Positions 4,573-33,993 of a stretch of 64,000 nucleotides of DNA are shown in pieces. The notes under the pieces were generated by a model. The model was not told where the DNA came from and did no database searches. It saw only the letters and a program-made list of their open reading frames with translations. Positions within the stretch are counted from its first letter, which is position 1; each line of letters opens with the position of its first letter. A program made the translations under genes and the position numbers. This DNA is from Natronococcus sp. AD-5 (GTDB taxonomy: Archaea; Halobacteriota; Halobacteria; Halobacteriales; Natrialbaceae), in the NCBI RefSeq assembly GCF_030734285.1, contig NZ_CP132294.1:3844001-3908000 (forward strand), in the 5' to 3' direction.

Positions 4573-7331
4573 TGACCGTCCCGCGCTCGTTCACCCACTG
4601 GACACGGCTCGAACCCCGACCCCGAAACGGGGAACTGACCGACGCGCTACGGGCCCAGGTTCGGGATCCCCTGTGGTTGCTCACCCGGCAGTGGCAGCTC
4701 GCGGAGTTCCACGGGGACGACGCCGGCTCCCCCGTGCGCGCCGACGCGCACGTCGACCACGATCACCTCCGTCGCTACGATCTCGGCCCGCGGGATCGAG
4801 GGGAAGAGGGATGTGGACCGCGGGAGTACGCCGGCGAACCGCTGGAGGCGCTCGTCGAACGCGAACCGGTCCTGAGGGGCGAGGACGCGCCGCCCGCGCG
4901 GCTCAGGGCCGAGGCGGGCCAGTACTTCCTGCGGCTCCTCGCTGCATACGGGTACGACCCCGGGGACGGTACCCCGGCCGCCGATGACTTCCCCGGGGAC
5001 CTCCTGTTGACCGAGGTCGAGGGGGAGCTTGACGCCGACGGCCGCGCGTTCGAGCGCGTGATGGCCGACCGCGTGCTCGACGGGCAGGCCGTCTACGACG
5101 CCGTCGCGCGGGCGGTGTCGAACCTCGCTGCCGTCGGAGACGGTGCCAGCCCGACGGTCGCGGACGAGGCCGCCCTCCCGCTCCCGACCGACGGCCGCAG
5201 GACAGTGGCGTTCGACAGCGCCGTCGTGGATTTCGTCGACTACTATCGCTCCCTGTTCGACGAGCCCAACGCGGCGGCTCCGTCCGCCTGGCGACCGGAA
5301 CGGATGGAGTACGCGTTCGCGGTCGCGACCGGGGAAGGCGAGGCGGAGACCGTGTTCGAAGCCCCGGCGTTCGACGGCGGACACCTCGACTGGTACGCGT
5401 TCTCAGTGGATCCCGATCGGTCGCTGGCGTCCCCGGCCGACGCCGAGGGCGGTGACGACCGGACCGAGGACCTCGGTGGAGACGGGGACGCGAACTACGG
5501 GGACGACGGGCCACAGACCGAGACCACGGTCAGCACAGTTCCGACGCGGGCGAGGTTTCCCGGGATGCCAGCCACGCGCTGGTGGGAATTCGAGGACGCC
5601 GCCGTCACGCTCGGCGAGGTGGCGGGCGCCGGCGCGAGCCTCCCCCGGTTGCTCCTCCTCGAGTTCGCCGTTCAGTACGGCAACAACTGGTTTCTCGTCC
5701 CCGTCGAGACGCCCGTCGGATCGCTCTCGCGAGTCACCTCGCTGTCGGTCACCGACTCGTTCGGCTGCAGCCAGTCGGTCGAACCCGCGGTGGCGCGGAC
5801 CGACGACTGGAACGCGTTCGCGTTTCCCTTGCCGGACGCCGACGAGCCCGGGCTGTTCGTCCCGCCGACGCTCCCCACGTCGGCCGAGTCCGGCCCGGTC
5901 GAGCGCGTCGTCCTCGCCAGGGACGAACTGGCGAACCTCGCGTGGGGGATCGAGCACCTCGTCGAGGGGCCGGTCGGTGATCCCATCGACCGGGACGCGT
6001 TCGACCGGCCGTCGCTTCGGATCGACGACGTCTCGCCGGCTTCCGAGGGCGACGTGGCGACGGAGTTCGTCGACTTCGAGAACCGCGGCGATGACGAACT
6101 CGACCTCTCGGGCTGGACGGTCCGACGGGTGAGCGACGGGGAGGCGTCGACCGTCTTCACCTTCGAGGACGAGGCCCTCCCGCCGAACGGCAGGCTCCGA
6201 CTCCACACCGGTAGTCAAGCGAGCGCCGCGGTGGACGGTGAGCGACGCGATCTGTACTGCGAGCGCAACGACCCCATCTGGGCCGACGCCGACGCCTTGA
6301 GCGTCACTGACGAGTCCGACGGAACCCCGAAACACGTCGCGTTCGAGCGGTTGAAACGGCCCAGCGACGCCGTCGCCGACTACCGCCTCTCGACGGACGT
6401 CGCCGACCACTGGTTCCCCCTTACAGTCGATCCGACCGGGCCGACGGACTACCGACTGACGCTCGCCCGACTGATCGACGCCGATCACCTCGGCGTGGAT
6501 CCGGCCCACCTTCCCGCGCCCCAGGGCGAGATTCTGGATCCCGACGCCGGGCTACTCGGGGATGGCGAGGACGCCCTCGGGCTCCCGGAAGAGGAGGTTA
6601 CCCGTGGCGGCACGGAGGTGACTCGCCGCTATCGGCTCTCGGCCTGGCACACCGGGCGTTCGCACCTCTGGACCGGCCGTCGCGTCTGGACGGGCCGCGG
6701 CGAATCGTCGAGCGACCTCAGGTTCGACGTTCTGGAGGAGCGGACCGACTCCGTCGGTTCCGTCGTCAAGGACGAGGAAGACGGGGACCGCGACCGTGAA
6801 GATGGAGACGGCGACCAGGAGGATGGGGACGGCGACGAGAGAGACGGAGACGCGGACCGTGGAGACGGAGACGAAGATGGAGACCGAGACGACGAGCCCC
6901 ACCCGCCGCGAGAGACGACCCTCGGGCTGCCCGAGACCGTCCTTGCCGCGTTGGCGTACCTCCTCGGGTGGCTCTCGGGGATCGCCGTGTTGCTCGTCGA
7001 GCGCGAGAGCGAATCCGTCCGCTTTCACGCCGCACAGAGCGTCGTCGTCTTCGGCGCGCTCTTCGCGACGAGAATCCTCCTCCTGGTCATTGAAGTGGTC
7101 GTCTTCCTCCTGTATTACCCCGCCTATCCGACCGGCTTCTACTACCCCGGCGGGCCCGCAGACTGGTCGACCTACCTCACGCTCTCATGGGTCATCCGCC
7201 AGCTCGTCCTCGTGTACTGGCTCGTCGTGGCGATCGCCTGGATCGCGCTCGTCGTGTGGACCTATCGGGGGAACGATCCACGCGTTCCCGGGGCCGCACG
7301 GGTCGCAGACGCGCTGGTCGGACGCTCGTGA
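4572..7331 (+). CDS. Large protein with lamin-tail-like domain and C-terminal DUF4870-like membrane domain
   Basis: This protein of about 919 residues starts at the ATG at 4572; a GTG sits one codon upstream. The N-terminus contains RDPLWLLTRQWQLAEFHGDDAGSP, written here only as a landmark motif (key words RDPLWLL and RQWQLAEF), typical of a family of large uncharacterised proteins. Around residues 475-580 is a lamin-tail-like beta-sandwich (EFVDFENRGDDELDLSGW). A low-complexity Asp/Glu/Arg/Gly linker follows at about 735-780. The last 140 residues hold several hydrophobic helices with the signature LAYLLGWLSGIAVLLVE and RFHAAQS, matching the DUF4870/Tic20-like membrane family. The architecture suggests a large cytosolic or surface part anchored by a C-terminal membrane module. 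It is coupled to the upstream giant gene. The molecular role is unknown. Confidence 0.85.
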   Translation: MTVPRSFTHWTRLEPRPRNGELTDALRAQVRDPLWLLTRQWQLAEFHGDDAGSPVRADAHVDHDHLRRYDLGPRDRGEEGCGPREYAGEPLEALVEREPVLRGEDAPPARLRAEAGQYFLRLLAAYGYDPGDGTPAADDFPGDLLLTEVEGELDADGRAFERVMADRVLDGQAVYDAVARAVSNLAAVGDGASPTVADEAALPLPTDGRRTVAFDSAVVDFVDYYRSLFDEPNAAAPSAWRPERMEYAFAVATGEGEAETVFEAPAFDGGHLDWYAFSVDPDRSLASPADAEGGDDRTEDLGGDGDANYGDDGPQTETTVSTVPTRARFPGMPATRWWEFEDAAVTLGEVAGAGASLPRLLLLEFAVQYGNNWFLVPVETPVGSLSRVTSLSVTDSFGCSQSVEPAVARTDDWNAFAFPLPDADEPGLFVPPTLPTSAESGPVERVVLARDELANLAWGIEHLVEGPVGDPIDRDAFDRPSLRIDDVSPASEGDVATEFVDFENRGDDELDLSGWTVRRVSDGEASTVFTFEDEALPPNGRLRLHTGSQASAAVDGERRDLYCERNDPIWADADALSVTDESDGTPKHVAFERLKRPSDAVADYRLSTDVADHWFPLTVDPTGPTDYRLTLARLIDADHLGVDPAHLPAPQGEILDPDAGLLGDGEDALGLPEEEVTRGGTEVTRRYRLSAWHTGRSHLWTGRRVWTGRGESSSDLRFDVLEERTDSVGSVVKDEEDGDRDREDGDGDQEDGDGDERDGDADRGDGDEDGDRDDEPHPPRETTLGLPETVLAALAYLLGWLSGIAVLLVERESESVRFHAAQSVVVFGALFATRILLLVIEVVVFLLYYPAYPTGFYYPGGPADWSTYLTLSWVIRQLVLVYWLVVAIAWIALVVWTYRGNDPRVPGAARVADALVGRS

Positions 7332-7449
7332 TCGCGTCGAACATCCGAGTAGCCCCGTGCGCCGCGCCGTCGACGGTGGCCGCCACCGGGCCCACGGGCC
7401 GGGCGACGACGTCGACGGCACGACTCGGGTGGAGGCACGGAGATCGGTG

Positions 7450-7729
7450 GATTGAAGCCGGATTCCCGTTCGAGCACTTTGGAGATCCACCGCTCCGTGA
7501 ATTCGTCCGGGAATTTCGGATTTTCCTTTTGAAGGAATTCCCGAACTTGGTCCTGAGTCTTTGGTGGTACTAATCGTTTTGCGCGCTCTCGAATTTTCTC
7601 CTCAGAAGGGTTCTCACACTCCAACACATAGACGAAGTGATTACTGGAATCAGGAGTCCGTCTGTCGATATATGAGTTGAGGTCATCCTCAGAAGCAGGC
7701 AGTTTAATTCCAGTAGTACGACCAGGCAC
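7450..7729 (-). pseudogene. Truncated gene, possibly the N-terminal part of a GIY-YIG-type protein
   Basis: The frame starts at a GTG at 7729 and reads a normal haloarchaeal-looking protein for about 90 residues, including HFVYVLECENPSEEK, the type of strand that opens GIY-YIG nuclease domains. After about position 7450 it runs into Arg/Pro/Gly low complexity on the antisense of GC-rich sequence. The gene therefore appears cut off where the GC-rich block begins. The GIY-YIG assignment is tentative because the catalytic half is absent. Confidence 0.45.
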
Positions 7730-8315
7730 CCGTCAAGGACCGTCGCAACGCGCTCGGACGGATGGGTTGAGTCACGTCTCGGCGGCCGTTCGTTACGTCG
7801 CCCCGTCCCAGGAATTAACAGCCTCTTAAAATAGCCGTCCCCGTTCCCGAGGCTGACGTGGCGAGCGGCTCGCCACCTCAGACAGCCCAACCTATACTAG
7901 AGTCACAGGTGACCTTGCCCAACCCCGCTGGTCAGCGAGCCCATATATCGACCGATTAAATCGGAACGACGGGGGTCTGTCGATAGTTCAATTCAGGTCG
8001 ATATGACGGCCCTTACTGAGGTTGAAACTAGTGGTTTGACTACCGTCAGTTTATGGATCCATCTTCCCAGGTGCTGATGAAGACACCGACGATCTGATAG
8101 AAATGGCGTGCGAGAGATAGAGGATATATCCATCAAGGCAAGTCGCTTTATTTCGAGTTGGCGGGTCTGAACTACCTGGAAGGGAATGTGCGAACTGAGC
8201 AACCAAACCGTTCCATCCAAACAGATACTTGATTAGTGGAGATAATAGTTTTATATCATACCAACTGTTATCCATCCCCAGCCTGTAAGTCTCTTACCCC
8301 AGTCGTGGGAGCCTA
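7730..8315. other. Gene-free stretch
   Basis: No convincing coding frame was seen on either strand. GC content falls relative to the first 7.4 kb. The last 70 bases hold an AT-rich TATA-like stretch (tttatat near 8250) that probably serves the gene starting at 8316. Confidence 0.5.
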
Positions 8316-17993: not shown

Positions 17994-20108
17994 TCATTGA
18001 AAACCGAGAAGACTTGCGTCGGTCTGGTCTGCAAGGTACTCTCGGATATCCGATTCTCGCCATCCAACCGGCGAAACTACACTTTCAGCTGCCCGTACAA
18101 GCAGATCCGCGTAGAATTCAGGATCGTACCTCTCTGGCATCTCGTGTGCAAGTGCCACCCGGTCGCGTGATTGTTTGTCGTCGTCGACGACCACATACGC
18201 GATATTCTCGCCCGGGTATTTTTCGAGCCCATCGGCGGCCGCACGCTCGAGCGCAGCGACGTTTCGTGTGGCCTGGGAATACGCATCGCGATGTTTCGAA
18301 ACACGGTTATCAATAACTAGTTCTTGTGGATCGACGTCGCCGCGACGGATCGCTGCCAGTTGGCGATGAAGCCTCTCACAAACTGCTTCCGGCGTTCGAT
18401 GCCGATCAAGTACTTCGATTAGGTCCTTCTGAGCGTTTTCAATAAACGGTGGGGTCGATCGCTGTCGAATCTCGATTCCCCGATATTTGTACCGCCTTTC
18501 AGGATCGGTCGCGTCCACACGTGCTCCGAAATACTTTGTTAGCGCACCGCTCTTCTCCATTCGCAGTGGCACGAACGCAACCCACTCAAATTCGTCTTCA
18601 TACTCGAGTCGAATTCCAATGCGATCGGAGATCTCCGACGCAAGCTCATGCAAAGATGTTTGCGCAGTACCGTCCATTGGCGTGACCCAGATCGAATCGA
18701 CGATCCCGTGGACGACATGCCACCCGTTCCGCTCGAAGACGTCTTTCGCATTCAGTAGGATTTTACGCGCGTAAGCGTTGATCGCCTCGTGGCACTCAAT
18801 CCGGCCAAATTTTGCATTACTGAATCCCTGGTAGCCAAAGCAGCTTACGAGAATCCATTTGATGGCGTCCGATTTTCCCTCGAGTTCACGTCGCCGTTCT
18901 GGATCGTCTGTCTCGCGAAGTTCGGCTTTGATTGCATCCCGATCTTCGATCAACGGGCGTAGAACATCGGGTAAGTAGCCCGGTTCATCACAGACTGCAT
19001 ACCCGAGTCCGGGGACATCTTCCCGTTCGCGGTGACACTCACATCGAACCGTCTCAGGCGAGAGATTGCGTGTTACAATGATATTCGGGTACAGCGAGCT
19101 GAAATCGAGCTCGTGAACATCCTCGTGGAAGCCGACATCAGGCGAGAAAATGAATCCTCCACGATCGGCATCGTGCAATTGACGCGCGCTTTTGAACAAT
19201 TCGTGTCGCCACGAATTCCAGGGGGTCAGCACATTCTGTCGTTGTGTCTCGCGAATTTGGATCGCAGTCAAGAGATTGCCGATACTGGCCCAGGCGGCTT
19301 CTTGGAGTGGCTTCCACGATCGCTCGACCATATCAAGCAGTCCAGAAAAGCCTGCCTTGTGCCAGAGGAACGTATTGGACTCGTCAATGATCGCTCGTCC
19401 CGGAAGGTTATAGCGAGCTGGTGAGTGGCCAACTCGCCCGTAGCTCTCGTATGTCGATCGACCAGCAAGCTGTTGGTAGCCGGGTCGCCGTCCTAACTGA
19501 TACTCGCTACAGTCACATGGCGCCGCGTCGAACAGCTTTGGAACGATGGCGGCAGAACTCAGAACAAGAACATCCGGATCAGCCATTCCGATTCGCGCAG
19601 CGACAGCTTCAGCAACCTCCGTCGGTGTACCCTCTACTGTATCATCGCCGATCGTGAGGGCGCAGATTCCCTTCTCGTGGGCGAGTTCCGTCTCTGGTGC
19701 ATCGATGCGAAGCGTTTTTGGAGTCCGTGCTGGAGACGGATCAGCACCTGTTTCCAGACAGTATCGAAATTCCCACGAGAAATCCACGTTGTAGCATTTG
19801 TACGTGCCCGGAACATCCCAGCTACGAAGGTCCGACGCGACCGAGGTGACGTCCGAAATATCGTCCGCGTCGATTCGAAGGACTGGTTCGGAGTCGTGTC
19901 GCCAGCCGATTCGCCACTCTTCGATCTCCGTTCGGACCACCTCGGTTAACCGGGCGACGAATCCCCTGATCTCTACGAGATCATCTCGAGAGGGCGCTGA
20001 AATATACAAACTCGGGGTATAGTCATCGACGTACTCACAGGTTGTTCCATCCTCGGTGAGCGACCACAGTAGGATGTCCCCGTCGAGATAATCGATTTTA
20101 TAGGGCAT
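17994..20108 (-). CDS. polB2: Divergent family-B DNA polymerase, PolB2 (Dpo2-like)
   Basis: The ATG at 20108 (MPYKIDYLDGD) gives 704 residues; the longer open frame upstream overlaps the preceding gene. Polymerase motif A is intact (DFSSLYPNI, Asp near 335). Motif B is altered (KWILVSCFGYQG against KxxxNSxYG). Motif C reads HGIVDSIWV where active enzymes have YGDTDS, so the first of the paired aspartates is replaced by Ile. The N-terminal exonuclease region lacks recognisable DIE and NxxxFD motifs. These features match the archaeal PolB2 class, whose crenarchaeal member Dpo2 is DNA-damage-inducible and implicated in lesion bypass. It begins two bases after the small upstream gene, in an operon with a RecA-like gene. 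Confidence 0.85.
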   Translation of the reverse strand: MPYKIDYLDGDILLWSLTEDGTTCEYVDDYTPSLYISAPSRDDLVEIRGFVARLTEVVRTEIEEWRIGWRHDSEPVLRIDADDISDVTSVASDLRSWDVPGTYKCYNVDFSWEFRYCLETGADPSPARTPKTLRIDAPETELAHEKGICALTIGDDTVEGTPTEVAEAVAARIGMADPDVLVLSSAAIVPKLFDAAPCDCSEYQLGRRPGYQQLAGRSTYESYGRVGHSPARYNLPGRAIIDESNTFLWHKAGFSGLLDMVERSWKPLQEAAWASIGNLLTAIQIRETQRQNVLTPWNSWRHELFKSARQLHDADRGGFIFSPDVGFHEDVHELDFSSLYPNIIVTRNLSPETVRCECHREREDVPGLGYAVCDEPGYLPDVLRPLIEDRDAIKAELRETDDPERRRELEGKSDAIKWILVSCFGYQGFSNAKFGRIECHEAINAYARKILLNAKDVFERNGWHVVHGIVDSIWVTPMDGTAQTSLHELASEISDRIGIRLEYEDEFEWVAFVPLRMEKSGALTKYFGARVDATDPERRYKYRGIEIRQRSTPPFIENAQKDLIEVLDRHRTPEAVCERLHRQLAAIRRGDVDPQELVIDNRVSKHRDAYSQATRNVAALERAAADGLEKYPGENIAYVVVDDDKQSRDRVALAHEMPERYDPEFYADLLVRAAESVVSPVGWRESDIREYLADQTDASLLGFQ

Positions 20109-20110
20109 CG

Positions 20111-20395
20111 CTATCCTGAATTCGACTTCGGTTGCTCGAGTTCGGCCTCGAGGGTACAGACGCGCTCTTGCAGTTCTACGAGGCGAGTCTCCTGCTCGAG
20201 AGCAATAGAGAAGAGAACAGGATACAAGGGGTCCGGATGGTTGAGTTGGCCGCCAGCGTCGGCGTGCTCGCGAGCATAGGACAGCAACTGGTCGAAGTGC
20301 TGCTGGTCCTGAGAGCGGAGTGCACGCCGGTACGATTGCCACTCGTTCTCGAGGCCGCGAAGCACATTTCTGAATGTCGGATTAGTTCGTCCCAT
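20111..20395 (-). CDS. Small helical protein of the PolB2 operon
   Basis: The 94-residue product is mostly helical, with SYRRALRSQDQQHFDQLLSY in the middle and a coiled-coil-like end (LEQETRLVELQERVCTLEAELE, key heptad Leu/Val positions). It has no catalytic motif. Its start overlaps the end of the RecA-like gene by 14 bases and its stop lies just before the polymerase start. Archaeal PolB2 operons typically include a small protein between a RecA-like gene and the polymerase, so it is probably a partner or assembly factor. I do not recognise the family itself. Confidence 0.75.
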   Translation of the reverse strand: MGRTNPTFRNVLRGLENEWQSYRRALRSQDQQHFDQLLSYAREHADAGGQLNHPDPLYPVLFSIALEQETRLVELQERVCTLEAELEQPKSNSG

Positions 20396-21089
20396 ACGTC
20401 ACCCCCGCAGCCGATTCACAGCCGTCGGTGCTAACAGCATGAAGTGGCTGCCGTGCTTCCAGAATACGCTGCCAGAAGGCGAACGTCGTCTGTACCATCC
20501 CGTTCCCCACGGGATAAACGAGCGTCTCGAACCCGTCGCTTGCAAATCGCGGTCCGTGAGGCGTATCTGTAACCTCAATCACAGTATCAGCGACTCTCGC
20601 TACGGGCGCACTGAACTCGTCATCCTGCACTCGAGTGAGCACTACTGGAACAGTACATCGGCGCGCAATCCCGGCGAGTTTCGCGACGGCTCGAACAAGA
20701 AGCGCGGACGCTTCCTGCGTCGAGAGGTTGCCGTCTGGACTCCGGTAAAGACCATCCAATGCCGGTGCGACCACGAGTGGCGCGTCCCTGCTGCTCAAGA
20801 GTTCGTCCGCGAGATCGTCGACGAGAGCAAAGTGCTGAAACGGTGTGAATGCTCGAGCAACCTGAATCCGGTCGAGCATCTGTCTACTGGGTGCGAGTCT
20901 CGAGAGGGACTGTGTCTGGATGTGTTCGAACACGTCGATCCATCGCGCCGTCGTCTCGTTTAGCAATAAGTGATCGAGAATCAGCGCTTGTAGTGGAGCC
21001 GTCGACTGTTCGTCGAGCTCGAGGAGGTTCACACCCGCTGTAAGCGACGGGAGTTCTGGGATGCGGTCTCGGGTTCTACTCGGTTGCAT
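20382..21089 (-). CDS. RecA/RadA-superfamily paralogue lacking Walker A
   Basis: The ATG at 21089 (MQPSRTRDRIPELPSL) gives 235 residues; the open frame to 21116 starts only at a TTG. The layout follows a RecA/RadA core: GVNLLELDEQ stands where the Walker A loop would be, ARWIDVFEHI matches the second strand, IQVARAFTPFQHFALVDDL matches the RadA NVYVARAY-like motif, and APLVVAPALDGLYR matches the Walker B strand without its aspartate pair. Both nucleotide-binding motifs are therefore degenerate. Such inactive RecA-like proteins accompany PolB2 in archaea. It probably acts as a DNA-binding or polymerase accessory subunit. It is the first gene of the operon. Confidence 0.75.
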   Translation of the reverse strand: MQPSRTRDRIPELPSLTAGVNLLELDEQSTAPLQALILDHLLLNETTARWIDVFEHIQTQSLSRLAPSRQMLDRIQVARAFTPFQHFALVDDLADELLSSRDAPLVVAPALDGLYRSPDGNLSTQEASALLVRAVAKLAGIARRCTVPVVLTRVQDDEFSAPVARVADTVIEVTDTPHGPRFASDGFETLVYPVGNGMVQTTFAFWQRILEARQPLHAVSTDGCESAAGVTYGTN

Positions 21090-21134
21090 ATTTCCCGATT
21101 CCAGGGAGATCGCCAAAAGCGAGCGCGTGGTGTT

Positions 21135-21149
21135 TCTGGAAGTTCCAGA
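21135..21149. promoter_or_regulatory. Perfect palindrome upstream of the PolB2 operon
   Basis: The sequence TCTGGAAGTTCCAGA is a perfect 15-base palindrome with a central G. It lies 46-60 bases before the operon start codon at 21089, just upstream of where a TATA box would sit for a leaderless transcript. A 12-base core (TTCTGGAAGTTC) recurs upstream of the Orc1/Cdc6 gene at 22299-22315. The position suits an activator or repressor site. Confidence 0.6.
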
Positions 21150-21240
21150 TACTGCTTTAGGAAAGATCGCGGCGAGTACGGCAGGCTATGTCGGGCAACG
21201 GCGATTTCCAGAACCCAACTCGAGCAGCCGGATCGACTCA

Positions 21241-22245
21241 CTATTCAAGAATTCGATAGGTTCGATCTCGACTCGTTCCGTCGGCGGCGATCAGGTTGTA
21301 GTGGGCCATCTTCGTCAGATAGTTCCGGACTGTCCGATCGGATTTCGGATCCTCGACGCGCTGTTGATACGTTTCGTAAAGAGAACTCGGCTCAATTTCT
21401 TCGTGTTCTTCGATAATATCGTAGAGAACTCGCTGGTGGTGGATCAGCGTCTCTATGCTCTTTTGCCGAACCTCCTCACGACCGGCAGGGATTGCCATTT
21501 CAATGTGGTCGCCTGTAATGCGATCCGCTGTCGCCCGGTCTGCACGTCGCGCTGCACTCCGTAGAATACTGAGCGCGATTCGCGCGTCGCCCGCGGCCAC
21601 ATCTGCAATCCAGCGAAGTTGATCATCTTGGATTGCGTTTTCGACGAGTCCCCAGCGGGCTCGAGCGGCCATAATCGAGACGAGTTCATCGTCGTGGTAT
21701 GCGTCGAATCGAATCCGTTCACTACCCGTCAGCCGGCTCGTCAATCGCTCATCTACTGTTCGGAGGATTGCCTCTTCACGGTTCGCAATCAAGATCATGC
21801 TGAACTGCGGGAGTTCGTGAAGATGGTAGAGCAAGCTCGTGTCCTCCAACTGGTCTACCTCGTCGAGGACGACGACACAAGGCGGGCCATCGTATTGACG
21901 GAGTCGTTCGAAGAGCTCATCGCGGGGTGTCGACTGGCGATGGATATCAAGTGTTTGGCCGAGTCCCTCGAGTATTCGGTGGAGCGCGCGAAATCGAGAA
22001 TAGTGCTGCCAGCAGTTGACATACTGGAATTCGGCATCGAGGACTTCTTGGCGAAGCTGATCGCCCATATACTTCGCAACGCAGGTCTTTCCAACGCCGC
22101 TCGGCCCGTGCATGATAGCCGTCTCAGGCGTTTCGCCGTCGGCAATCGGAGCGAGAGTTTCTGAGAGGTATGTGGTTTCGGCGTCTCGATGCTCAAGGTC
22201 CCCGGGAACGAACTCTTGGCGGAGGACTCGAGCATCCGTGATCAT
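21241..22245 (-). CDS. Orc1/Cdc6-family AAA+ ATPase, possible regulator of the PolB2 operon
   Basis: The ATG at 22245 (MITDARVLRQEF) has a TATA box (TTTTATACTA) 29-38 bases upstream, fitting a leaderless mRNA. The 334-residue product has Walker A GPSGVGKT near residue 48, Walker B VVVLDEVDQ near 125, a sensor-like LIANREEAI and an arginine-rich lid, then a C-terminal winged helix from about 255. It is shorter than typical replication initiators of about 400 residues. No origin-like repeats were seen beside it. It is directly upstream of the PolB2 operon and both share a promoter motif. In Sulfolobus an Orc paralogue (Orc1-2) activates damage-response genes, so a similar regulatory role is plausible. 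Confidence 0.88.
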   Translation of the reverse strand: MITDARVLRQEFVPGDLEHRDAETTYLSETLAPIADGETPETAIMHGPSGVGKTCVAKYMGDQLRQEVLDAEFQYVNCWQHYSRFRALHRILEGLGQTLDIHRQSTPRDELFERLRQYDGPPCVVVLDEVDQLEDTSLLYHLHELPQFSMILIANREEAILRTVDERLTSRLTGSERIRFDAYHDDELVSIMAARARWGLVENAIQDDQLRWIADVAAGDARIALSILRSAARRADRATADRITGDHIEMAIPAGREEVRQKSIETLIHHQRVLYDIIEEHEEIEPSSLYETYQQRVEDPKSDRTVRNYLTKMAHYNLIAADGTSRDRTYRILE

Positions 22246-22273
22246 CCGTGCTATCAGAGTTATTCATCCGATG

Positions 22274-22283
22274 TAGTATAAAA
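22274..22283 (-). promoter_or_regulatory. TATA box of the Orc1/Cdc6 gene
   Basis: On the minus strand the sequence reads TTTTATACTA, 29-38 bases before the ATG at 22245, at the distance expected for a haloarchaeal leaderless promoter. Confidence 0.6.
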
Positions 22284-22298
22284 TGGTCACGGGGTCGT

Positions 22299-22318
22299 TT
22301 CCAGAACTTCCAGAAGGC
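22299..22318. promoter_or_regulatory. Repeated TTCTGGAA motif upstream of the Orc1/Cdc6 gene
   Basis: On the minus strand the sequence holds TTCTGGAAGTTCTGGAA, a tandem of TTCTGGAA. It shares the core TTCTGGAAGTTC with the palindrome before the PolB2 operon. It lies about 16-35 bases upstream of the TATA box, which is an activator-like position. Confidence 0.5.
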
Positions 22319-23109: not shown

Positions 23110-24235
23110 GATCGACCTGAATGAGTTCCTGCGCGGAATCTAGCAGATCCATGACGATCTTACGGTGGCTCTCTCCCTTTCGAATCGGCCGAGCGTCTAG
23201 GACTAACGGAACGGCTTTCCCAACCAACTGTACGGTCGCCCACTGGTAGGCGTACTCACCATCTTTCGTACCGAGAATCTCGTCCGCGTGGCCCGTTCAA
23301 TCGCCTGTGAACGGCTCTGCCTCGGTCGTATCGATTGCAACAAGTCCAGCATGGTGGAAAGTATCTGTCTCCGACACTTGGTCGATAAGCCGCTGCAACG
23401 CCTCCTGGTACATTTCGCGAATCGACTCGATCGAGAGACCACGGATATGCGCTCGATGAGCGTGTCCCAATGGCGTCCGATCCCGCCGTGAGTCATAGAG
23501 GAAACTACGTGCACCTTCGTTCGCTGCCAGATTCTCTCGCAGCCCGAGGTACGTCTGGAGATCCCAGAACGCGTTTGAATGAATCTCACAGCTGTCTCCG
23601 CGATCGAACGAGAACGCCGGATAGGCGACATGACTCACTTGTTCAGTAATCTCGTCTGCATGAGTGAGCACGCTGTCATCGGTAGGACTGGTTTCTTCAG
23701 GACTCTCAGAGGTACGAAGGGGTTCTCTGGGAACGTTGTTGCCTTCCCTATTGGCGTTGATGAGGATGAGTCGTGCGCTCTTCTTGATCGTCTCCTGCAG
23801 ATCAGGTGAGAACCGGCAGTGCCATGTCCGCCAGAGCGTTGATTGATCAGGAGGCGTCTCGAAGCCAAGCTGCTGTCGGATCATTGGCCGCCGTTTGAGA
23901 TGCTTGAGGAGCGCTGTTTCGTGATCCCAACCGTAGGCTTCTTTCAGCAGAAATATCCGTGTCAGCATGCACATTTCGTATGTTGCTGGCTCGTCGTACT
24001 GATCATGCGGAGACAGATCAACGTATTCCAACGGGAGTTCGCAAATGAACTCGTCAACCGAGTTGTGAGCTTCGTGAGCAAACCAGACCGATGCAACAGT
24101 TTGAATATCTTCTTCGAGGCCGCCGAGCGATCTTCGGTCGTACAACTGTGTCGTGTCGTACGCTGGCCACTCTCGGTACGAATCCGTTGCGATCGTTCGA
24201 AAGACATTGCGTCGCGAAGCCTGCGTCGAGGCCAT
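23110..24235 (-). mobile_element. Decayed DDE transposase (ISH-type), in-frame TGA and 3' truncation
   Basis: The frame starts at 24235 (MASTQASRRNVFRTIA) and encodes 312 residues to EPFTGD, then meets a TGA at 23297-23299. The same frame continues with TGHADEILGTKDGEYAYQW, VQLVGKAVPLVLDARP and QVDRVLIDT before breaking off at about 23110. Transposases of this haloarchaeal kind read GDRTGHEDEI here, so the stop replaces an Arg codon. The first catalytic Asp (VAIDTTEAEPF) and the second (VLID) remain; the C-terminal Glu region is gone. Terminal inverted repeats were not identified. Confidence 0.75.
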
Positions 24236-32793: not shown

Positions 32794-33993
32794 CTAGTCT
32801 GAAAGGGCTTCTAACACGATGTCTGTCCCGCGCATGAGCCGGTGTTCGAGATAACTCCCCTCGCTGTGTCCGCCGCCCGTGTGTCGAGATTCAGTGACCC
32901 CGAGAAACGATTGCTCTTTCAGCAGTCGATACACGCGATCCTGGCTCAGCGGGTCACTGCCTTCAGCCACTGCAATACTCTGATACACCTGGTAGATTTC
33001 GTGCGTCGCGAACGCATCTCCTTCGCGGTTCTCAGTGAGCTTCGCCAGCGCACGAAGGAGGTATTTGACGTGCGGTGTGGATCCCGAGACGAGTTCCTGA
33101 AACCGCTGGATCTCCGCCTTTTGTTGGCCACGCTCGACGTGGGCTTCAGTGACGTGGTTGTCATTTTGGCGCTCAGCCAGCTCACCTGCTTTCTGAAGGA
33201 TGTTGATCGCTTTCCGTGCATCCCCATGTTCACGAGCCGCGAGTGCAGCGACTTTCGGAATCACGCCGTCTTTGAGAACGCCTTGTTTGAACGCGTCTCG
33301 ACGATTCTCGAGGATGGACCGGAGTTGATCGGCGTCGTACGGTTGAAAGATAATGTCCTCGTCCTGGAGGCTGGAGTCAATGCGTTCGCTGAGCCGATCT
33401 CGAAATTCGATTTTGTTACTGATAGAGATGACCCAGAGATAGCAGCCTGTCTTCCCGGTTTCTTCTGCTCGCGAGAGCTGCATAAGGACGTCCTCGTCAC
33501 GGAGAATATCGATCTCGTCGAGGAGCACAACACAGATATCACGGGTCTCGAGAAGATCCCAGAGATAACGGTAGTATTCACTTGCGCCAATCCCTTGGTT
33601 TGGAATGTTCGGTGCCGACTCGGTTTCATCGGCCAGTTGAGTCGTGATTTCACGAGCGACGCGAGTTTCCGTATCGGCGTCCGAACAATCGACATAGACA
33701 GAACTGAACTTGACGTCGTTCGCGATCGCCCGCTGCCGTGCCCGCTGTGTGACGTGACGTGCGACGAGTGATTTGCCAGTCCCCGTTTTGCCGTAGATAA
33801 CGATGTTTGAGGGTGGGCCGCCATCGATCGCGGGACCGAGGGCCTGCCCGACGTTCTGCAGTTCCGTGTCTCGACCCACGATACGATCGCGTTCAGGGAC
33901 GTGACCAACACGTAAGAGTTCGCGTCGATTGAAGATATCACCAGTTGCAAAGAGGTCGTCTTCAGAGAAGTCGTTGAGATTGCGATTCGACAT
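32794..33993 (-). CDS. Orc1/Cdc6-family replication initiator
   Basis: The 399-residue product has full family length. It contains an N-terminal leader (LLRVGHVPERDRIVGRDTEL), Walker A YGKTGTGKS near residue 72, Walker B VVLLDEIDIL near 158, sensor 1 VISISNKI, the sensor 2 region HGDARKAINIL and a C-terminal winged helix (EIYQVYQSIAVAEG, RVYRLLKEQSFLGV). It binds origin recognition boxes and loads the helicase. Its start faces the repeat-rich AT-rich region at 34.1-35.2 kb, the usual arrangement for a haloarchaeal plasmid origin. Confidence 0.93.
   Translation of the reverse strand: MSNRNLNDFSEDDLFATGDIFNRRELLRVGHVPERDRIVGRDTELQNVGQALGPAIDGGPPSNIVIYGKTGTGKSLVARHVTQRARQRAIANDVKFSSVYVDCSDADTETRVAREITTQLADETESAPNIPNQGIGASEYYRYLWDLLETRDICVVLLDEIDILRDEDVLMQLSRAEETGKTGCYLWVISISNKIEFRDRLSERIDSSLQDEDIIFQPYDADQLRSILENRRDAFKQGVLKDGVIPKVAALAAREHGDARKAINILQKAGELAERQNDNHVTEAHVERGQQKAEIQRFQELVSGSTPHVKYLLRALAKLTENREGDAFATHEIYQVYQSIAVAEGSDPLSQDRVYRLLKEQSFLGVTESRHTGGGHSEGSYLEHRLMRGTDIVLEALSD

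Follow-up and report, generated by a model that had tools for sequence, protein, structure and literature searches.

A conserved ORB-like element common to the promoters of an Orc1/Cdc6-family gene and the PolB2 operon in Natronococcus sp. AD-5 and other haloarchaea

Does an Orc1/Cdc6-family protein encoded beside the PolB2 DNA polymerase operon of haloarchaea control that operon? The question is raised by a locus of Natronococcus sp. AD-5, within a 64,000 bp stretch of contig NZ_CP132294.1 (positions 3,844,001 to 3,908,000; the window), where an orc gene is followed on the minus strand by iRadA, PPB2 and PolB2, the last three overlapping or abutting. A sequence-only reading of the window had proposed that an Orc gene, a RecA-like gene, a small gene and a family-B polymerase form a self-contained damage-tolerance module, with the Orc as its regulator and a motif in both promoters, and this interpretation is partly supported by the analysis reported here. 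The four genes are present as described (profile matches and gene coordinates; Table 1), and a conserved element lies at the same position in both promoters. We consider it probable (about 0.6), by analogy with Sulfolobus Orc1-2, that this is a translesion module whose linked Orc is a dedicated, autoregulated, non-initiator regulator of the PolB2 mutasome. The control of damage-inducible mutagenesis in euryarchaea is largely open, Orc1-2 being the best-studied archaeal case, and with a conserved, precisely placed operator the correlation of gene neighbourhoods becomes a regulatory hypothesis that can be tested and that offers a candidate haloarchaeal counterpart of Orc1-2. Haloferax, Halobacterium and Haloarcula are haloarchaea with good genetics for such tests; Haloferax volcanii has a polB2 gene, HVO_A0065.

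An element common to the two promoters

The exact 12-mer TTCTGGAAGTTC occurs twice in the window, at 21134-21145 on the plus strand and 22304-22315 on the minus strand, once in each promoter and directly upstream of a TATA-like sequence. The sequence-only reading had placed the core in this way, and had correctly described the site at 21135 as a palindrome (the inverted pair TCTGGAA-G-TTCCAGA) and that at 22299 as a direct tandem; in tandem notation the two operators are TTCTGGAAGTTCTGGAAACGACCCC (orc) and TCTGGAACTTCCAGAAACACCAC (operon). With the promoter models described below, the orc operator scores 26.9 bits (orc-promoter model) and the operon operator 23.3 bits (iRadA-promoter model) or 14.9 bits (orc-promoter model), and these two promoter sites are the only ones in the window to exceed 9 bits. 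When 20,000 pairs of 150-bp stretches were drawn at random, 88 had a 12-mer in common. A looser form of the motif (≤2 mismatches) gave 12 matches in the window vs 5.3 expected, which is weak, and it was set aside in favour of conservation. It is because the motif is conserved across haloarchaea, rather than because of window counts alone, that we regard it as not due to chance.

This conservation was examined in non-redundant promoter sets from many haloarchaea (iRadA, n=79; orc, n=71), each analyzed separately by de novo motif discovery using expectation-maximisation. The resulting consensuses, Aa.t.CGGAAaCgaC.Cgcc...GCTTA for iRadA and TtcCGGAAAC.ACCCggTtaCGtTTaT for orc, both consist of CGGAAAC-n-AC followed ~18 bp downstream by the transcription factor B recognition element (BRE) and TATA box, with log-likelihood ratios of 827 vs 98 and 1253 vs 166 for real and shuffled input. 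Each model predicts the other promoter set, with an area under the receiver operating characteristic curve (AUC) of 0.94-0.99 against dinucleotide shuffles and 0.97-0.995 when the background is 423 regions upstream of other genes at the same loci, and this cross-recognition persists when the TATA columns are removed. Of 72 non-redundant iRadA promoters in the alignment, 70 have the upstream half-sites, and the orc operator is likewise kept upstream of orc in other haloarchaea. In compact modules, with a gap of up to ~1.6 kb between orc and the operon, mostly both promoters have the tandem GGAA-9-GGAA; L064 and L264, with gaps of 1.0-1.1 kb, are among the exceptions. Retention of the motif in orthologous promoters of both units, on which the sequence-only reading had staked its case, is thus borne out by the de novo models (AUC 0.94-0.995). 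A conserved ORB-like operator common to orc and the PolB2 operon appears to be new, as no description of the promoter element was found in the literature searched.

Linkage of orc to PolB2 and relation to origin boxes

The window Orc matches TIGR02928 across its whole length (187.8 bits, above the cut-off), has Pfam AAA and Cdc6_lid matches, and retains both Walker A (GPSGVGKT) and Walker B (LDEVDQ) in alignment. Among chains in the PDB it is nearest to Cdc6-1, and it is one of ~11 full-length TIGR02928 genes in the genome. Linkage was assessed in 60 PolB2 loci picked solely by PolB2 similarity, with members of the window Orc subfamily counted at ≥40% identity, on the same strand and within ~5.4 kb upstream. 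iRadA and PPB2 are present in order at 58 of the 60, and an Orc of the subfamily lies upstream at 31, with gaps of 78 bp to 3.8 kb, so the association of Orc with PolB2, a second point on which the proposal could have fallen, is found well beyond this genome. Two loci (L009 and L010) encode an Orc 90-91% identical to that in the window and lack iRadA-PPB2-PolB2, and since both operators are kept there, the Orc and two operators behave as a unit. The second operator is at L009:7095 and L010:7097, and the L009 copy precedes a gene for a 126-aa coiled-coil protein.

The polB2-orc linkage is already published and the gene module is known, contrary to the earlier belief that no dedicated Orc regulator had been described beside a haloarchaeal PolB2 operon. 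The sections of Berquist 2007 that deal with these genes (PMC1906834) describe a conserved linkage of polB2 with the Orc5 clade in Halobacterium NRC-1 and Haloarcula, both genes being non-essential in Halobacterium; the arrangement is the same linkage as here, but it is described as divergent, the function is left unknown, and those sections name no regulatory element. The corresponding parts of Makarova 2014 (PMC4104785) place an arORC2 gene in the PolB2 neighbourhoods of many euryarchaea, and those of Timinskas 2025 (PMC11791011) report orc1/cdc6 to be enriched beside archaeal polB2, suggest an Orc regulator and tie it to the damage response. The iRadA-PPB2-PolB2 set with a nearby orc1/cdc6 is the same in both, but no promoter element is named in these parts of the two papers, and the word 'promoter' is absent from the available text of the 2025 paper.

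The core of the element resembles the origin recognition boxes (ORBs) to which Orc proteins bind. Six sister orc genes in the genome are flanked by 4-8 repeats found with a repeat counter, many with G-strings, forming ORB-like arrays, and several of these families have CGGAAAC/CGGAAAT or CTGAAAC as the core of the repeat. With the same repeat counter, for which the sister orc genes (L295-L300) served as positive controls, no ORB array or G-string was found flanking the window orc on either side, and the upstream regions of its subfamily have no arrays clearly above shuffles. To judge from these repeats, the promoter element looks like an ORB core that was moved to a promoter, usually doubled, and left without an origin array. 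Given the ORB-like core and the missing array at the window orc, the element is most likely read by an Orc-family protein, and an initiator role for the window Orc appears unlikely.

Two other orc regions have features of origins. A second Orc gene in the window (32836-33936, a 403-codon frame) has inverted ORB-like repeats TTTTCACTCGTTGCG upstream, and its region is a candidate origin of the island described below. The orc gene at G000:C2:1020825-1021922 (L295/L008) is flanked on each side by ORB-like arrays, and behind it come degraded PolB2 fragments (41% and 36% identity) that seem to be left over from a second module.

Candidate readers of the element

In the mechanism that we propose, ATP-bound Orc would bind ORB-like operators (a CGGAAAC/TCTGGAAAC core in tandem with a 9-bp period) beside BRE/TATA in the orc promoter and the operon promoter alike. 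The ATP state of Orc would be altered by replication stress or DNA damage, the changed state would switch both units together so that both are induced, and the induction would raise the level of the PolB2 mutasome for translesion synthesis. We infer regulation of the operon by Orc from the shared element, and both the likeness of its core to ORBs and the missing origin array at orc lend weight to this view; the window Orc would be the protein that binds the element, and DNA damage the signal. Archaeal activator sites lie upstream of TATA, and the location of both sites directly upstream of TATA, as in Sulfolobus, suggests that the effect would be activation.

The closest parallel is Sulfolobus Orc1-2, a non-initiator of the Orc1/Cdc6 family that, as proposed here, acts at a short element in its own and other promoters, ANTTTC (the DNA damage-responsive element, DDRE) at damage-response genes (PMC9738581). 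The PolB2-iRadA-PPB2 operon is among the damage-induced genes there (PMC9738581; its damage-induced transcription is also given in the pertinent part of PMC11791011). There are several differences: orc and the operon are physically linked in the window, their element is not the DDRE but a tandem of CGGAAAC/TCTGGAA with a 9-bp period, and no global regulon is seen in the window genome, which has two promoter sites only. The reverse complement of the window orc site, CGTTTC, is one mismatch from ANTTTC, which we treat as a resemblance only.

A variant of opposite sign, in which Orc would be a repressor of both units that, like LexA, comes off the DNA upon damage, seems doubtful, and its probability overlaps that of the activator reading. 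The tandem adjoins BRE/TATA and is compatible with blocking of TBP/TFB, and in the relevant section of PMC11791011 lexA, the SOS regulator, holds the matching place beside bacterial polB2, a regulator gene next to the same polymerase set as here, although the regulator protein and operator are unrelated. The haloarchaeal sites, however, are upstream of TATA and not over TATA or the start, as is also the case for Orc1-2. The sequence data are compatible with either sign.

Several observations weigh against control by the linked Orc. An adjacent orc is absent from 27 of the 60 PolB2 operons, so a trans-acting reader is needed at these, and 'self-contained' was too strong a description of the module. 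Expanded modules, often of plasmid type, have unlike promoters, with a single palindrome (TTCCGGAA) at orc and TGAA-8-GGAA or GGAA-8-GGAA at the operon. The single-site orc promoters of this type correspond to one Orc clade (support 100/100), which also includes one tandem row, and there are a few other single-site calls outside it, including L011 beside the window Orc. The operator spelling matches between the two promoters in 26 of 31 modules (Fisher p 0.0002), and this agreement represents a single change on the Orc tree that is not independent of phylogeny; coevolution of operator and Orc was rejected as evidence. Finally, the main texts of two Halobacterium ultraviolet (UV) studies (one is PMC2556686) have no mention of polB2, orc or cdc6 in the portions available, and PMC2556686 reports a different UV-B motif, TTTCACTTTCA. 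That motif likewise contains repeats and precedes the TATA box of damage-induced genes, radA1 among them, but its sequence and gene set are different.

The missing orc genes could also mean that the element is read by an unlinked transcription factor, such as a haloarchaeal damage-response regulator, with the Orc gene itself a member of the regulon and its linkage a product of joint function or transfer. Several of the operons without an adjacent Orc keep the element, and in other genomes it is also found at SNJ2-type integrases and a 193-aa gene, as this explanation would predict. We nonetheless judge it unlikely, as the element shares its core with the ORBs that Orc proteins bind, the Orc and two operators persist without PolB2, and most genomes have many Orcs, so that a trans-acting Orc is at hand. 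Less likely still is that the Orc is the replication initiator of a low-GC island or former plasmid, in which case the element would belong to an origin or serve autoregulation of the initiator, and the PolB2 copy would be a by-product: haloarchaeal plasmids often have Orcs of the subfamily (101 records), an orc gene of a related clade, Halobacterium orc2, is essential (in the sections of PMC1906834 that deal with it), the module lies in a 48-57% GC region beside 72% GC DNA and the core is ORB-like, but the arrays seen at sister orcs in the same test are missing, and the element is at a fixed TATA offset and also in the operon promoter, which is not an origin.

Other copies of the element and setting of the module

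Genome-wide counts of the element are pattern matches. There are 22 matches to TCYGGAANNTCYGGAA at ≤1 mismatch, vs 5 for the reversed control, and the orc and iRadA matches alone are in promoter positions. The sole promoter occurrence of an exact TCYGGAA tandem is that at orc, and allowing one mismatch adds only the iRadA site. A large regulon in this genome was considered and rejected, the remaining tandem matches being inside coding frames or without clear promoter context. Among the other Orc genes of the genome that were checked, only a 53% paralogue has the element (at C1:182, spelled TCGGAAATTTCGGAA); this chromosomal gene, G000:C1:120-1174 (L002/L286), thus has its own tandem operator in the TCGGAA spelling. 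The orc at C2:1020825 has a weak match of 13 bits.

Across the class, TCGGAAN{2,3}TCGGAAANNNCC gave 78 matches in 55 of 381 genomes, and the reversed control gave 1. The tandem TCGGAA element also precedes other orc genes, and in many Natrialbaceae it is found upstream of SNJ2-type, betapleolipovirus-related tyrosine integrases (PF00589; e.g. L190, L194, L197, L200, L202, L207 and L212), where it lies ~220 bp or more upstream together with a TATA-like sequence. Five integrase loci were scored with the iRadA model, and their elements reach 14.6-29.9 bits. The integrase regions examined in SNJ2, HRPV9, HHPV4 and Halfgib1 have no convincing element, the best being 8.7 bits in HHPV4. SNJ2 itself (L316, a Natrinema virus) has a gene of its own for an Orc1/Cdc6-superfamily protein, close to the integrase operon. 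At four further loci (L188, L193, L195 and L199) the tandem is directly upstream of a gene for a 192-193-aa protein without a Pfam match.

We offer as a tentative idea, with the odds somewhat against it, that haloarchaea have an SOS-like system derived from an origin protein, in which non-initiator Orcs read ORB-like tandems at their own gene, at the PolB2 mutasome and at Natrialbaceae SNJ2-type integrases, so that a mutagenic polymerase and provirus excision would share a signal. Different Orc clades would then use different operator spellings, the window Orc TCTGGAA and its chromosomal paralogue TCGGAA, which would give insulated copies within one genome. This suggests a route from an origin-binding protein to a transcription switch by shifting a binding box from origin to promoter. 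If the integrase element is Orc-dependent, provirus excision would be tied to the same switch, giving a handle on provirus induction.

Table 1. Coordinates of the orc-PolB2 module and its promoter features in the window
Feature	Position	Strand	Description
orc	21241..22245	-	334 aa Orc1/Cdc6-family AAA+ protein with winged helix; candidate regulator
iRadA	20382..21089	-	235 aa, inactivated RadA/Rad51 fold, Walker A lysine absent
PPB2 (arCOG07300-type)	20111..20395	-	94 aa small protein, N-terminal MGRT
PolB2 (Dpo2-type) family-B DNA polymerase	17994..20108	-	704 aa, profile matches and motif C
Operator of orc (putative)	22291..22316	-	CTTCTGGAAGTTCTGGAAACGACCCC, direct tandem of TCTGGAA, 9-bp period
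TATA-like box of orc	22275..22285	-	CATTTTATACT, from sequence
Operator of iRadA-PPB2-PolB2 operon (putative)	21125..21151	-	TATCTGGAACTTCCAGAAACACCACGC
TATA-like position of iRadA operon	21112..21124	-	GCTCGCTTTTGGC; operator offset as in orthologous promoters
Extra lone half-site between orc and iRadA	21206..21213	.	TTCCAGAA / TTCTGGAA

The three genes of the operon are predicted from their sequences to form a PolB2 mutasome, an accessory translesion-polymerase module. PolB2 matches NF004418 with 1047.8 bits (cut-off 692) and Pfam DNA_pol_B with 2.5e-33, and its motif C is HGIVDS rather than YGDTDS, with the first Asp of DxD replaced; HGIVDS[ILV]W is found in 125 of 133 PolB2 homologues. iRadA has a weak match to Pfam Rad51 (E 0.002), but an AlphaFold model built from 20 homologues (predicted local distance difference test score, pLDDT, 80) finds RadA/Rad51/Dmc1 structures as its best Foldseek matches (E 1e-11). 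In alignment the Walker A GKT is lost, which fits the inactivated RadA reported in PolB2 operons in the relevant parts of Makarova 2014 (PMC4104785) and Timinskas 2025 (PMC11791011). The start of iRadA is taken as the ATG at 21089, which matches the promoter; the TTG at 21116 given by the open reading frame tool is unlikely. For PPB2, the MGRT start is present in 105 of 149 homologous genes in the fetched loci, and MGRT is given as the conserved PPB2 N-terminus in the passage of Timinskas 2025 on this protein (PMC11791011).

A search for a viral source of PolB2 gave no match among viral contigs. In the class-wide search six same-genus genomes have no PolB2 match at E 1e-60, and the module is therefore accessory. 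The same Orc gene is present in one same-genus genome (G248). The genome is 5.17 Mb in two contigs. GC content in the window is 71-72% up to 6 kb and 65% between 6 and 8 kb; beyond 8 kb it is mostly 48-57% to near the end, and the low-GC part, in which the module sits, is island-like (an island or integrated plasmid). This part, which follows the drop at 6000-8000 (~72% to ~53%), has insertion sequence-type genes, one example being that at 23297-24235 (DUF772).

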